Source: a virus. Taken from it: a DNA stretch of 20,887 nt. A program made the position numbers and the translations under genes. The stretch covers positions 1 to 20,887 of IMG/VR virus record IMGVR_UViG_3300037041_000124; one strand, 5' to 3'. The notes beneath the pieces are model-generated. The model saw only the letters and a list, made by a program, of their open reading frames with translations, was not told the origin of the DNA and made no database searches. The first letter of the stretch is position 1, and each line of letters starts with the position of its first letter. Below, one piece after another: positions 2,109 through 15,516 of the stretch.

Positions 2109-3077
2109 TTAAAATGGTAAGTCGTTTAATTTTCTTTCTATCATTGTTATATTCTTTTTTATTTCCTGTTGCTTACAAGCAAATTCTTTTACAAATACAT
2201 TTGGTGCTGGACTTGTCTGCTCAAAGTAGCTTAACCTTTCTTTATCAAACCATATTTCAATCATTCCTATATTTCCGTTGCTTCGTGGTTTAATTTTATT
2301 GAAGTGTATTTCTGCTAAATTAAAAGTAGGGTCTTGTCTATGCACTGTAATCATACATTTACCACTATTGAACCATTCACTACCACCTTTTAAATCATAA
2401 GGTACAGGTGCATTTCTTTTACCGTTTTCTTTTTCGGTTAGTTTTGGGTGTATGATCGTGTGCAAATGTAAATCATTATCTTCAGCTATTTGATTCCTGT
2501 AAGGTAAAACATATTCAAGGTATTGAGCATATCCTCCATAATCACTATAAGGGTGGTTTAAATCCTTCCAACTATCAATTGAAGCCGTGTGCAATTCTCC
2601 GTGTTTTTTTATTTCTACTGCCATATCCCAAAATTGAATTGGTGTGAGCTTTGCTTTTACATCTTCACGAGTAAGAATTTTAAAGTGTTGTATTACCCAA
2701 TCAATAGCCATTGTTATTTCTTTATCTTGTATAACATTCTTGTCTAATGGATTAAAGCTCTTACCTGTCTTCTTATGTATTAAATCAGCTACTATTTCTA
2801 CATTAGAACCAACATCAGGAAAATAAACTAAATGCTTCCATCCGTAAAATTTAGATGTATTCATTAAACACTCCATTAGAACTTGTGTTTTACCACTCAT
2901 AGGGAACCCTGTCCAATCTGTACAATTTCCTAAGCTCATTGAGTAATGCTCGTGCAAACTTTTAAAACCTAAGTATTTTCCTTTTTGGTTATAGTTATCT
3001 CTATATTTAAACAAGTCAGTAATTACATCACCTGCTTCTGTTATTTTATATCCATTTAACTCCACGGTGCTTTCCAT
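2109..3077 (-). CDS. RecA-fold replicative helicase, Twinkle/T7 gp4-like
   Basis: This 322-residue protein is a single RecA-fold ATPase. Walker A is GFPMSGKT (57-64), a Walker-B-like strand is ASIDSWKDL with Asp168, and THTIIHPK-like residues (about 206-211) and GGSEWFNSGKCMITVHR (231-247) match motifs H3/H4 of the DnaB/Twinkle/T7 gp4 family. No primase domain is present, so the protein is short compared with gp4 (over 500 aa) and DnaB (about 450 aa). Priming would have to come from elsewhere. It probably unwinds DNA at the phage fork. Its start overlaps the upstream initiator gene by 22 bases, the usual initiator-helicase pairing in phages. A recombinase-type ATPase is the alternative, but the C-terminal motif favours a helicase. 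Confidence 0.75.
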   Translation of the reverse strand: MESTVELNGYKITEAGDVITDLFKYRDNYNQKGKYLGFKSLHEHYSMSLGNCTDWTGFPMSGKTQVLMECLMNTSKFYGWKHLVYFPDVGSNVEIVADLIHKKTGKSFNPLDKNVIQDKEITMAIDWVIQHFKILTREDVKAKLTPIQFWDMAVEIKKHGELHTASIDSWKDLNHPYSDYGGYAQYLEYVLPYRNQIAEDNDLHLHTIIHPKLTEKENGKRNAPVPYDLKGGSEWFNSGKCMITVHRQDPTFNLAEIHFNKIKPRSNGNIGMIEIWFDKERLSYFEQTSPAPNVFVKEFACKQQEIKKNITMIERKLNDLPF

Positions 3078-3670
3078 TTTTTAGGTTCGTTTACTTCAGG
3101 TATTTCAATTGGCTTTTCCCAACTTCTTACACAGGCTTTCCAGTCTTTCATTTTGTTCTTTCCGACCATCCAACCTTTAGAAGCGTAAAAGTTAAGAAAT
3201 TTATTTACATCAATTCCGTTTTTTCTTTGTGTGCAGTATTCAATAATTTCATTATAAGTAGGTTCTATAAATATACTTCTTTCATTCTTTTCATTCTTTT
3301 CATTCTTGTTAGTGGTCGCTTGTTGGTCATTCATTGGTCGCTCGTTGGTCGCTTCGTTGGTCGTTAACTGATACTTTTTGTAGTTAACAAGTTGAATTAT
3401 AGTACCTTGTGAGCTTGTATTGATGGTCACTTCGTTGGTCGATTTTAGCTTATCTAATGCAGTTCTAATTTGTCTTACACTTAACCCTGTTTCAATTGCT
3501 AAAATATCTCTTGAAGTTATAACCGTTCCAATTTTTAATTCCATTCCTTTAAATCTTTTTTCTTTGTGATTAGCTTTAAGAATAAGATGTAAAAAAACAC
3601 GAAAAGTATTGTTATCTGAATACCATTCCCACTCTAAAATTTGTCTATGTATTTTAATCCAACCTATCAT
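3056..3670 (-). CDS. Phage replication initiator with winged-helix N-domain
   Basis: The 204-residue protein begins MIGWIKIHRQILEWEWY, the typical opening of phage replisome-organiser proteins. Residues up to about 95 form a winged-helix domain: LKIGTVITSRDILAIETGLSVRQIRTALDKL is the helix-turn-helix part and GTIIQLVNYKKYQ the wing. A low-complexity linker rich in Asn, Thr and Glu (about 102-135) follows, then a C-terminal helical domain (about 138-190) with YASKGWMVGKNKMKDWKACVRSW, a motif common in these proteins and thought to contact helicase or loader. It precedes the helicase gene with a 22-base overlap. The linker DNA carries phased GGTC repeats that may be the origin, as in lambda O. 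The function is inferred from architecture and context. Confidence 0.75.
   Translation of the reverse strand: MIGWIKIHRQILEWEWYSDNNTFRVFLHLILKANHKEKRFKGMELKIGTVITSRDILAIETGLSVRQIRTALDKLKSTNEVTINTSSQGTIIQLVNYKKYQLTTNEATNERPMNDQQATTNKNEKNEKNERSIFIEPTYNEIIEYCTQRKNGIDVNKFLNFYASKGWMVGKNKMKDWKACVRSWEKPIEIPEVNEPKKWKAPWS
3281..3307. repeat. Three perfect 9-bp tandem repeats in the initiator gene
   Basis: The plus strand reads TTCATTCTT three times without a mismatch. The unit is a multiple of three and encodes Asn-Glu-Lys repeats in the initiator linker. It directly adjoins the GGTC repeats at 3312-3441. It may be an expandable low-complexity linker, or part of an AT-rich unwinding stretch next to an origin. 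Confidence 0.9.
3312..3441. repeat. Helically phased GGTC repeats, candidate origin iterons
   Basis: The core GGTC, mostly as TTGGTCG or TTGGTCA, begins at 3314, 3325, 3336, 3347, 3359, 3425 and 3437. Spacings are 11, 11, 11, 12, 66 (six times 11) and 12, so the copies lie on one face of the helix. In the initiator reading frame the copies fall in different codon phases, so they are not a by-product of a protein repeat. Two GTTAAC palindromes (3363 and 3383) lie in the gap. The pattern fits initiator-binding iterons inside the initiator gene. Function is inferred; the repeats are directly visible. Confidence 0.55.
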
Positions 3671-3940: not shown

Positions 3941-3970
3941 CAAATATAACAATTAATTTAATATAAACAA
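3941..3970 (-). promoter_or_regulatory. Bacteroidetes-type promoter for the replication operon
   Basis: The minus strand reads TTG (3970-3968), a 19-base spacer and TATATTTG (3948-3941). The spacing and both boxes match the Bacteroidetes housekeeping consensus exactly. The -33 element sits inside the last codons of the DnaA-like gene. Transcription would start near 3935 and cover the leader, the 56-codon ORF, initiator, helicase, coiled-coil protein and ninG. Confidence 0.75.
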
Positions 3971-4311
3971 CTTTTTATTTTCTTTTTTAAATCGGTTAAT
4001 TCACGCATTGAATTTACTTTAAGTATTTCCTGTCTTAGCGTTACTCTAATAGGGAAGCGTTCTCTTAAGTCAAGTGTACAATTTAAATATTGTTCATCTC
4101 TAACTCTATGCCAGTGCTTATGGCTTTCTATTGAATGTATTATTGTTGCATGAGTCTTATTAAATATCTCGCCTATTTCACGAAGCATTAACTTTTCTTT
4201 TCTTAACAGGTGAGCTAAAAAAAAGCGTCTATAAACTTTGTCTCTTTGTCTGTTTGGTAGGTCTAAGCCTTCCTCAATTATCACTTGTTTTATTTCTTCT
4301 ATTCTGCTCAT
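3958..4311 (-). CDS. DnaA domain IV-like DNA-binding protein
   Basis: Residues about 25-70 of this 117-residue protein resemble domain IV of DnaA, the helix-turn-helix domain that binds DnaA boxes. They read YRRFFLAHLLRKEKLMLREIG, then EIFNKTHATIIHSIESH. The second part aligns with the DnaA signature IGxxFxxRDHsTVxHAxxK, keeping the His-x-Thr-(I/V)-x-His core. No AAA+ ATPase domain is present, so the protein cannot be an initiator of the DnaA type on its own. It overlaps the methyltransferase stop by 4 bases (ATGA), and its 3' end carries the promoter of the replication operon. It could be a regulator, a DnaA competitor or an origin-binding accessory. The fold assignment is moderately sure; the role is open. 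Confidence 0.65.
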   Translation of the reverse strand: MSRIEEIKQVIIEEGLDLPNRQRDKVYRRFFLAHLLRKEKLMLREIGEIFNKTHATIIHSIESHKHWHRVRDEQYLNCTLDLRERFPIRVTLRQEILKVNSMRELTDLKKKIKSCLY

Positions 4312-5165
4312 CTTTTTATAAATTTAAATATATGTTCAATTATTGGCAATGTCCATCCATCTCCTAATAAACTACCTGATTCTTCTTCTGAAAGTATATC
4401 ACAATAATCGTCTGTGAAACCTTGCAATCTACACATTTCTATTTTTGAAAATACCCTCAATTTATTATCTTCTATTATTTCACAATAGCTACCGAAATCT
4501 ACTCTATTTTTTAAAAACTTTTGCAGAGCAATTTCAGTTTTAGGACAAGCACCAATATATCTTTGAATAATAGCGTTTGATTTTTCTTTGTTTACTTTCC
4601 CACTTAAAATTATATCTTGTAATTTTATTTTTAAGTCTTTTGGTTGTGGTATATCGGTTACTAAATCAAACATAGTTTCTTTGGTTCTTATGTTACTCCA
4701 ATAATATCTATCTCTAAGTTGAGCTGTAACTAATTTTGAATTAATACGCACTGGATAAACACCTAAAGCCCTACTCATTATCCCGACATCTAATTTAGAA
4801 GCACTCCCTACATTTTCCTGTAAGAATAAAACCTTTGGATTTAGTGTTTTTATATGTTCCAATATTTCAACAAACACAAAAAATAAACTGCTTTTACTTC
4901 CATTTATTCCTGCTCTTTTTCCTGCAGCAGATAAATCTTGACAAGGTGAACCGCTTAAAATTAAATCAATACTACTCCAATTAATATCCCATTCCTTCCA
5001 TTTAGTTACATCACCAACTTGAATAGTATCAGGGAAATGATATTGAGTTAATTCTATTGCATAAGGTTTGATTTCACTTGAATAGTATTTATTTACTTTG
5101 ATACCTACATTTTCTAATGCTTGTCTACCTGTATTCATTCCGTTAAATAAACTTACTACATTCAT
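4308..5165 (-). CDS. Orphan DNA (cytosine-5-)-methyltransferase
   Basis: This 285-residue protein has the ordered motifs of C5-cytosine methyltransferases. Motif I for S-adenosylmethionine is VVSLFNGMNTGRQAL (3-17), the catalytic loop is GSPCQDLSAAGKR (72-84, nucleophile Cys75), ENV is at 117-119, QLRDRYYW at 149-156, RLQGF near 247-251 and the C-terminal motif X is LGDGWTLPIIEHI. The enzyme transfers a methyl group to carbon 5 of cytosine at a short target. The target-recognition region (about 165-240) is small, and the length is near the lower limit of the family. No restriction endonuclease gene adjoins it, so self-protection against host restriction is likeliest. It lies in a coupled series of small early genes. 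Confidence 0.9.
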   Translation of the reverse strand: MNVVSLFNGMNTGRQALENVGIKVNKYYSSEIKPYAIELTQYHFPDTIQVGDVTKWKEWDINWSSIDLILSGSPCQDLSAAGKRAGINGSKSSLFFVFVEILEHIKTLNPKVLFLQENVGSASKLDVGIMSRALGVYPVRINSKLVTAQLRDRYYWSNIRTKETMFDLVTDIPQPKDLKIKLQDIILSGKVNKEKSNAIIQRYIGACPKTEIALQKFLKNRVDFGSYCEIIEDNKLRVFSKIEMCRLQGFTDDYCDILSEEESGSLLGDGWTLPIIEHIFKFIKR

Positions 5166-14225: not shown

Positions 14226-14252
14226 GTCTATATTAATTTATTTATATATTTG
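14219..14252 (+). promoter_or_regulatory. Promoter-like site for the plus-strand chaperone pair
   Basis: The plus strand has TATATTTG (14245-14252), a full match to the Bacteroidetes -7 box. TTTG ends at 14221, 23 bases upstream, longer than the usual 19. Transcription would begin near 14258, only about ten bases before the ATG at 14268. The site lies between divergently transcribed genes. Confidence 0.55.
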
Positions 14253-14267
14253 TTAAAAAAAGAAACT

Positions 14268-14804
14268 ATGATAACAATTTTAGACCACGAGTTACCAAAC
14301 AAAGTAACTGAATTAAGCATCGCACAATTTGAGGCTATAACAACAATCAATGCTAATGAAGAGCTTGACCCTATCGAAAAGCATTTAAAGGTTTTTGAAT
14401 ACTTAGGTATACCCGAAAAAGAATTCGCAGACACTGACATTGATAATTTTATTGAGATGGTAAAAGAATTCAATGCTAGTACAAAAGAAGATTTAACACA
14501 AGTTACTGAGTTTGAAGTAGAAGGTTATAAGTATGTAGGCGAGTTTAAGCTTTCTGTAAGAGACACTAAGCTAATTGAAAAGTGCGTAATTGCTAAAGCA
14601 CCTGGTTATATTAGTCAAATAGTTGCTATTATGTTTAAGCGTGAAGATTTAACTAACACAGAACACTATGCAGAAGCCCATTTGAAACAAAAAGCAAAGT
14701 TGTTTAAGGAGTTAAAAGCTAATATTGCTATTCCTTACCTACACTTTATAGCACAAAAGATAAACCAACAAGCAAAAAATGAAACTACCCCTATCGTGGA
14801 GTGA
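14268..14804 (+). CDS. Putative tail assembly chaperone A
   Basis: I start at ATG 14268 (MITILDHELPNKVTELSIAQ), because the TTG at 14250 lies inside the -7 promoter box. The 178-residue protein is acidic and helical, with LSIAQFEAITTINAN, a central VEGYKYVGEFKLSVRDTKLIEKCV and a Lys-rich C-terminal helix. It aligns in outline with the next gene: both begin LPxx(x)xxxTxxQFxxLxT, then have a short helical domain with IPxxx, and a related C-terminal part, which suggests paralogues. The gene lies between head and tail genes, where chaperones for the tape measure are usually encoded, but on the opposite strand. Other structural or regulatory roles remain possible. Confidence 0.5.
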   Translation: MITILDHELPNKVTELSIAQFEAITTINANEELDPIEKHLKVFEYLGIPEKEFADTDIDNFIEMVKEFNASTKEDLTQVTEFEVEGYKYVGEFKLSVRDTKLIEKCVIAKAPGYISQIVAIMFKREDLTNTEHYAEAHLKQKAKLFKELKANIAIPYLHFIAQKINQQAKNETTPIVE

Positions 14805-15516
14805 TATTACTGTTGAACAGTTTATTGAATTAAGCACTTTAGATACTACAGGCGGTTCGTATTCTTACAATAGTGAGGCGTTAAGCGTGCTTTGTGATAT
14901 ACCTTTAGAGGATATTGAGGATATAGACATAGAGGATATGTCCGACTTAATGCAGGAATTAGAGTTTACTAAGTCACAGCCGAAGAATTCATTTAAAAAT
15001 GAGCTTTTAGATTTGACTATTAAACCAATTGGTAAGCTTACGCTTTATGAGTACATAGACCTTGAGCATTATTTCGCAAATGATTATGTTAAGAACCTTG
15101 CAATTATAGCGGGCATAAGATATAAACATACTGAAGTTGATAAGTTCTCTAATCTAGTCTATGAGCCTTACAGCTATAGTCCTAAAGATAGACAAGACTT
15201 ATTTCTAGAGTTGCCTGTTACTGAAGTCTACGGTCTTATACAAGAGTTCCTACAATACAGGGACAAGTTTCTAAAGACTTATGAGAATTTATTTAACCCT
15301 GAAGGTGAAGAAGATTTAACAGCTGAAGATAAGGCAACAATGGACCCCGAAGAAATAAAAGAAATTGAAGAGACTAAGAAGTCTACTAAGTGGAGTTGGG
15401 AGTTAATGATCTATAACTTGTGCGGTGGTGACTTGACTAAATATGAAGCACTAGGGGAGTTACCCCTGGTGTTAGTGTTTAATATGTTAGGTATGAAAAA
15501 AGAGCTTAACCTCTAA
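14779..15516 (+). CDS. Putative tail assembly chaperone B
   Basis: The protein (245 aa) begins MKLPLSWSDITVEQFIELST, like gene A but with an added C-terminal domain of about 70 residues: an acidic hinge (PEGEEDLTAEDKATMDPEE) and WSWELMIYNLCGGDLTKYEAL, then LPLVLVFNMLGMKK. This two-domain form beside a shorter relative resembles the G and G-T pair of siphovirus tail chaperones. Its start lies inside the end of gene A (26-base overlap) in the +1 frame, at an A6 run. Its stop converges with the end of the gene at 15506-15949, overlapping it by 11 bases. The chaperone role is inferred from place, paralogy and architecture. Confidence 0.5.
   Translation: MKLPLSWSDITVEQFIELSTLDTTGGSYSYNSEALSVLCDIPLEDIEDIDIEDMSDLMQELEFTKSQPKNSFKNELLDLTIKPIGKLTLYEYIDLEHYFANDYVKNLAIIAGIRYKHTEVDKFSNLVYEPYSYSPKDRQDLFLELPVTEVYGLIQEFLQYRDKFLKTYENLFNPEGEEDLTAEDKATMDPEEIKEIEETKKSTKWSWELMIYNLCGGDLTKYEALGELPLVLVFNMLGMKKELNL

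Follow-up and report, generated by a model that had tools for sequence, protein, structure and literature searches.

Origins within initiator genes and the iteron array of the window

Placement of a replication origin inside the gene of its own initiator is already known from several replicons. In phage SPP1 the direct repeats of oriL lie inside the initiator gene 38, beside an A+T-rich unwinding element, and are followed by a loader and a DnaB-type helicase (PMC6316719), and the replisome organizers Rep2009 of Tuc2009 and ORF13 of TP901-1 bind direct repeats in their own genes, which have been shown to be the phage origin (PMC8965321). The O initiator genes of lambda and of Stx phages have iterons and an A+T-rich tract in their middle part, and added iterons add residues to O (PMC7466680). 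In the staphylococcal plasmids pSK41 and pTZ2162, Rep, which belongs to RepA_N, binds through its N-terminal winged helix to Rep boxes located centrally in rep; the origin-encoded linker of pSK41 Rep is dispensable, and both domains of the protein resemble DnaD (PMC5703833). Most RepA_N iterons are semi-palindromes with a poly-A tract (PMC7145576). Geminivirus iterons are short, vary from one closely related virus to the next and need to match the Rep of the same virus (PMC12548392). Here we describe the window, a virus contig of 20,887 bases (IMGVR_UViG_3300037041_000124) that is probably a fragment, in which an array of seven GACC cores lies inside the gene of a DnaD-like winged-helix protein. 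By its layout this locus is a member of the known class, and we consider it very likely that the array is the phage replication origin, embedded in the gene of its own initiator, and that this initiator, judged from sequence comparison, very probably binds the repeats enclosed in its gene.

Of the features of the DnaD-like in-gene-origin initiators (SPP1 38, Tuc2009, TP901-1 type), the window shows the protein profile, the winged helix-linker-helical layout, repeats constrained at the DNA level, an A+T-rich tract and a downstream helicase or loader gene. The likeness to SPP1 gp38/oriL, in repeats, A+T-rich tract and helicase, was judged by layout, and SPP1 has both oriL and oriR whereas the window, itself a fragment, has one array in 20.9 kb. 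Tuc2009 and TP901-1, which belong to a different host group, have the same layout, the comparison being one of layout only. As in pSK41/pTZ2162 Rep, a winged helix is combined with in-gene sites, and an AlphaFold2 model of the window protein, built from 52 relatives, matches the initiator structures 4pt7 (Z 8.4, root-mean-square deviation 4.9) and 4pql (Z 8.9, root-mean-square deviation 4.5), although CAP and other winged helices score alike. Unlike RepA_N proteins, the window initiator gave no RepA_N match (PF06970) in a Pfam scan at E <= 1, and its iterons, which read GCGACCAACGA/GCGACCAATGA, are asymmetric and about 11 bp apart, not semi-palindromic with a central poly-A; nor is the two-residue code presented below described for pSK41 Rep in the literature examined. 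The preliminary description of this DNA had likened the locus to the lambda origin within O. This parallel holds for the layout, with iterons and an A+T-rich tract placed centrally in the initiator gene, and there is a weak match to the O-like phrog_345 (E 4e-7), but the parallel does not extend to the components: in lambda, O dimers bind long quasi-palindromic iterons, whereas the window has short asymmetric direct repeats and a DnaD-like protein for which the Pfam scan gave no O-family match. Geminivirus Rep differs from the window initiator in being an unrelated rolling-circle protein.

The GACC cores of the coding (-) strand, which are GGTC on the + strand, begin exactly where the preliminary description had placed them, at the spacings of 11, 12 and 66 nt that it gave (sequence scan; Table 1, where the lower coordinate of each core is the GGTC start). 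Read along the (-) strand, the steps between cores are 12, 66, 12, 11, 11 and 11, and the codon phases are 2, 2, 2, 2, 1, 0 and 2. The first core base thus falls at codon position 3 in five copies, position 2 in one and position 1 in one, so that all three phases do occur, as had been claimed, though unevenly (5/1/1 copies). The further claim that the sites occupy one face of the helix stands only approximately: the spacing is near one turn, but since the steps are 11-12 and never 10, the sites drift by ~20-50 degrees per step at 10.5 bp per turn. The array begins about 230 nt into the initiator gene and extends to about 360 nt. It had been placed in the linker of the initiator, which the AlphaFold2 model bears out for cores 3-7, at the start of and inside the linker-coding region; cores 1-2 lie in the part that codes for the wing.

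The cluster is unique in the window, with 7 cores per 130 nt as against 2 GACC in the runner-up 130-nt stretch, and no comparable 11/22-nt periodicity was found in the other genes of the window. We compared it with shuffles that followed phage codon usage, permuted synonymous codons within the gene or permuted codon order, 5,000 under each of these three nulls, a check which the preliminary description had proposed, and 7 cores, or 5 pairs at 11/12 nt, were reached in 0/5,000 shuffles under each of them. Among 55 nonredundant relatives the arrays comprise 4-11 iteron copies at steps of about one helical turn, the steps being 11 in 144 cases, 12 in 47 and 10 in one, and synonymous shuffles destroyed the repeats in 51/55 of these relatives at p <= 0.01. 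The GACC repeats are real and non-random.

Covariation of the iterons with residues 54 and 66 of the initiator

In the first 80 viral relatives tabulated, all seven sites were found to change together, being GACC throughout in phages like that of the window and AACC, AACA, GGCA and so on in others, and the iteron type followed two residues of the winged helix. We counted 57 distinct close relatives with the iteron geometry of the window. Where residue 66 is Arg the first core base was G in 147/147 copies, and where it is Gln it was A in 238/238 (together 385/385), while the one near relative with Lys66 had GG in all seven copies. The G/A switch is seen at all three codon positions: the third, where it seldom alters the protein, the second, where RP becomes QP, and the first, where DQ becomes NQ. 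It cannot stem from selection on the protein. The preliminary description had attributed the repeats to selection at the DNA level, to which both the shuffles and this frame-independent switching attest. One could argue instead that the linker requires a repeated peptide, TNExTNERPxNDQQ, which the DNA repeats merely follow, and the linker is indeed Thr/Asn/Gln-rich and repetitive in all relatives. But copies in the three codon phases encode different peptides, and the first bases all switch together, although the change is silent in five copies and replaces an amino acid (R/Q or D/N) in the other two; moreover the synonymous shuffles lose the repeats, and the linker is predicted to be disordered. 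We give this explanation practically no weight, and it was rejected as refuted by the frame-independent switching.

For a wider sample we used a hidden Markov model of the domain, which gave 124 distinct in-scope domains, and called cores as chains of identical NNCN chosen blind to the residues. An earlier core caller, with a required A at position 5, had produced spurious exceptions (AACG, AGCA), which the chain-based caller removed. The chain calls were AACC for Q66/R54, AACA for Q66/non-R54, GACC for R66/R54 and GGCA or GGCC for K66. In a mutual information scan of 101 domain columns over 45 representatives, column 66 carried all 1.22 bits of core positions 1-2 (z 22.2; next column 5.8) and column 54 all 1.00 bit of core position 4 (z 18.9; next column 9.2). 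Some weaker signals were seen in wing columns 81-86, whose coding sequence also contains iteron cores 1-2. On the best tree, edge-disjoint contrasts agreed in 14/14, 5/5 and 8/8 (or 7/8) cases. Serine at position 66 would be too short to reach the bases, and mixed cores are thus expected with it; as observed, the Ser66 initiators (L355, L356, L365, L083, L085 and L057) had mixed GACA, AGCA and CGCA cores within one array. These arrays look as if positions 1-2 were no longer read.

The residue-base rule was fixed before the held-out loci were read; L082-L154 had then been retrieved but were unread, and later loci were retrieved afterwards. Among the held-out domains covered by the rule 62/63 matched it, and by identity to any training domain and to each other the matches were 36/37 below 90%, 32/33 below 80% and 22/22 below 70%. 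Combinations absent from the training set behaved likewise: R66/non-R54 was accompanied by GACA in 3/3 cases (Dulem virus 39, Solobacterium phage SMO_1P and MT836499), and K66/R54 by GGCC in L180, as predicted. The rule also fits L372, L373 and L378, the last being a G+C-rich plasmid relative with K66 that still has GGCA, and it holds across phages of Vibrio, Cellulophaga, Listeria, Bacillus, Lactobacillus, Solobacterium and Pseudoalteromonas. The preliminary description had also proposed a comparison with related phages, and in this comparison no initiator of the sub-family was without the repeats, whose sequence tracks the recognition residues. A two-residue code with frame-independent concerted switching of iterons was not described in the literature searched, which is weak evidence of novelty, as coverage of subscription papers was poor.

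A correlation of this kind could also arise if one linked 350-bp cassette had simply been inherited together, with no contact between residue and base, as no more than about 200 bp separate the residues from the sites and support for the tree is weak. However, the full signal is confined to columns 54 and 66 of 101, and the closest switched pair, L003/L299, is 92% identical in the domain, with 8 differences including R66Q, yet all copies have switched. Residues 54 and 66 act additively, new combinations were predicted, and the rule holds below 70% identity and across the phages of the host genera named above. Shared ancestry is hence a very improbable source of the correlation in our estimate.

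The A+T-rich tract and the proposed course of initiation

The AT-rich 9-bp repeats reported in the preliminary description beside the array are present, and the tract that contains them is constrained at the DNA level in the family. This tract adjoins the last iteron, is 77-80% A+T and carries a conserved AAGAATG motif. In the 66 nt past the last iteron of the 55 relatives AAGAA occurred 182 times, as against 78 in synonymous shuffles (maximum 98 in 300 shuffles), and its copies are often 8-9 nt apart, whatever the iteron type. Lys before Asn is encoded by AAG in 86% of cases in the tract, compared with 27% in other genes of the same loci. At 3275-3310 (-) of the window and in the tails of the 55 relatives, the AAGAA/AAGAATG motif directly follows the variable iterons and occupies two or three codon phases. 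The tract is a good candidate for the region of unwinding or loading.

We propose that each iteron, of about 11 bp and of the xGACCAACGA type, would be bound by the winged helix of the DnaD-like initiator, core positions 1-2 being read by Arg66 in the recognition helix and the G opposite core position 4 by Arg54, with which helix 2 begins. Seven sites about one turn apart would line up initiators side by side into a filament, which may open or distort the adjoining A+T-rich AAGAATG tract, and the C-terminal domain would then hand over the helicase encoded by the next gene. Because the array is itself coding, the amino acids of the linker would largely be a by-product of the sites.

The covariation points to binding and not to its purpose, and the array could instead be an operator or copy-number control site at which the protein represses or roadblocks its own gene, the origin being elsewhere. 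Initiators often autoregulate, and the Foldseek neighbours of the winged helix include the repressors CodY and CzrA. But the array lies about 230-360 nt inside the gene and not at the promoter, its 4-11 copies at one-turn steps stand beside a constant A+T-rich tract and a helicase or loader gene, and the best-studied homologous layouts are origins (PMC5703833, PMC6316719, PMC8965321); we thus hold an operator to be improbable. TubR and the centromere-binding protein AspA are also among the Foldseek matches, and centromeres are likewise arrays of short direct repeats, so that a centromere-like partition site bound by a winged-helix protein of this type may be considered. The protein family matches are nevertheless to DnaD-like loaders and initiators, the neighbours are replication genes, and no ParA/TubZ partner was found among the window genes examined, which makes partition even less probable than an operator.

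Some observations weigh against an origin governed by this code. Copy 4 is tolerant at position 4, being AACA in 19/29 of the Gln66/Arg54 relatives, and the single held-out miss, L153, has an alignment gap at the relevant column. Distant sub-families of the ESKVER and RWxWSRxKVRRF types have other repeated iteron cores that are off the rule. The strongly supported branches yield only 2 contrasts per trait, the rest being on weak branches of a 99-column tree. GC skew does not mark the array in the window, and in the complete relative phi18:3 its extrema track transcription or gene direction and not the iterons.

With these points weighed, a phage origin within the initiator gene is still the reading we prefer, and it is likely, in somewhat lesser degree, that the window represents a large phage initiator family in which a two-residue code (66: R=GA, Q=AA, K=GG, S=loose; 54: R=C, other=A) links protein and origin sequence both ways. 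Replicon specificity would have been switched repeatedly through one or two residues together with all 4-11 copies in three frames, the linker being dictated by the origin, and the constant AAGAATG would be read by something invariant across iteron types. Sequence comparison alone has in this case yielded a base-level code for initiator-origin specificity that is predictive across phages of several phyla. Such a code would make origins readable from protein sequence; the array is a naturally occurring example of concerted evolution in three reading frames, and exchange of one residue would be expected to transfer a replicon to another compatibility group. A further caution is that a protein linker may be conserved or repetitive as the shadow of sites in the DNA.

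Further arrays and records were noticed among the relatives. Those with RWxWSRxKVxRF recognition helices (L039, L064, L072, L078, L081, L092, L154 and L364) have in-gene repeats of their own, of the GAAACGCA, GTACAGCAGAC and GGCCGCAAACG types, and L125, an Ancylomarina relative, has an in-gene array of another kind, GGTTCCAGCAC / TGAGTTCCAAGCA, at steps of about 11 bp. The Segatella plasmid relative L377, with two tandem domains without iterons, was left out of the test. Among 395 Bacteroidia-type genomes drawn around G001 a match was found in one, the already known one, and Megablast of the window against phages gave no match. The record of L362 (PP511318, Dulem virus 31) assigns to Microviridae a genome of 35.8 kb that is tailed-phage-like and encodes a replisome organizer, probably a taxonomy error.

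The initiator protein and its gene neighbourhood

Profile searches with the initiator matched the DnaD-like loaders and initiators phrog_2514 (E 2e-27), phrog_7498 (9e-17) and phrog_186 (3e-11), and more weakly phrog_270 besides the O-like family mentioned above. In the Pfam scan HTH_36 was matched weakly and the C-terminal part gave no DnaD-type match, and a Protein Data Bank (PDB) sequence search with the initiator or its profile gave no significant match. Taken with the AlphaFold2 model, the profiles support a DnaD-like helicase loader or replication initiator as the predicted product of this gene. In the predicted winged helix, helix 2 spans residues 54-61, the recognition helix 65-77 and the wing 81-94; the C-terminal helices (139-149, 155-165 and 176-183) were modelled with moderate confidence (block means 63-76). 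In CAP the counterpart of residue 66 may be Glu181, a classical specificity position. The coordinates of all features are given in Table 1.

Table 1. Features of the initiator locus in the window (pLDDT, predicted local distance difference test).
Feature	Coordinates	Strand	Basis or remark
Initiator gene, 204 aa; winged helix, disordered linker and C-terminal helical domain	3056..3670	-	Profiles, AlphaFold2
Winged-helix domain, residues 1-101	3368..3670	-	AlphaFold2, pLDDT about 85-95 over residues 11-100
Arg54 codon, first residue of helix 2	3509..3511	-	Predicts core position 4: Arg = C, other = A
Arg66 codon, second residue of recognition helix	3473..3475	-	Predicts core positions 1-2: R = GA, Q = AA, K = GG
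Iteron core 1, GACC	3437..3440	-	Wing-coding part; switches with residue 66 in relatives
Iteron core 2, GACC	3425..3428	-	Wing-coding part; switches with residue 66 in relatives
AT-rich spacer between cores 2 and 3, 80% A+T	3371..3400	-	
Iteron core 3, GACC	3359..3362	-	Codon position 3
Iteron core 4, GACC	3347..3350	-	Codon position 3
Iteron core 5, GACC	3336..3339	-	Codon position 2; first-base change is R to Q in protein
Iteron core 6, GACC	3325..3328	-	Codon position 1; first-base change is D to N in protein
Iteron core 7, GACC	3314..3317	-	Codon position 3
Disordered linker, residues 105-132	3275..3358	-	AlphaFold2, pLDDT under 50
AAGAATGAA repeats, 9 bp, about 77% A+T; candidate DNA unwinding or loading element	3280..3307	-	
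C-terminal helical part, residues 139-183, FYxSKGWMVGKNKMKDWKxxVRxWE	3122..3256	-	Near-invariant alignment columns
P-loop ATPase, Walker A GFPMSGKT	2109..3077	-	phrog_5482 1.5e-73; phrog_18375 'DNA primase/helicase' 4e-13

The preliminary description had placed a helicase gene after the initiator, and the next gene does encode a P-loop ATPase with helicase-like profile matches, whose product is probably a RecA-core replicative helicase. In the ten relatives tested, the gene downstream of the initiator codes for a DnaB-like helicase, a DnaC-like loader or a related helicase core. The window helicase itself gave no significant PDB sequence match and showed no similarity in a direct comparison with the helicase of Dulem virus 39. 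Furthermore, a small gene at 3958-4311 (-), three genes from the initiator, encodes a helix-turn-helix resembling DnaA domain IV (Bac_DnaA_C, E 1e-6, just under the Pfam cut-off), and in Cellulophaga phage phi18:3 such a gene (gp012, 'DnaA protein') lies at the same distance of three genes. A phage-borne reader of DnaA boxes beside the origin may help initiation.

The DnaA-like gene is adjoined by a C5 cytosine methyltransferase gene (4308-5165, -), and the same order is seen in phi18:3, which raises the question whether the methyltransferase modifies DnaA sites or sites in the origin. That it acts on the iterons is unlikely, because the iteron type differs between the window phage and phi18:3. 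It may be noted that at 14250-15516 (+) two + strand genes stand amid an otherwise minus-strand gene set, and that the sign of the GC skew flips there.
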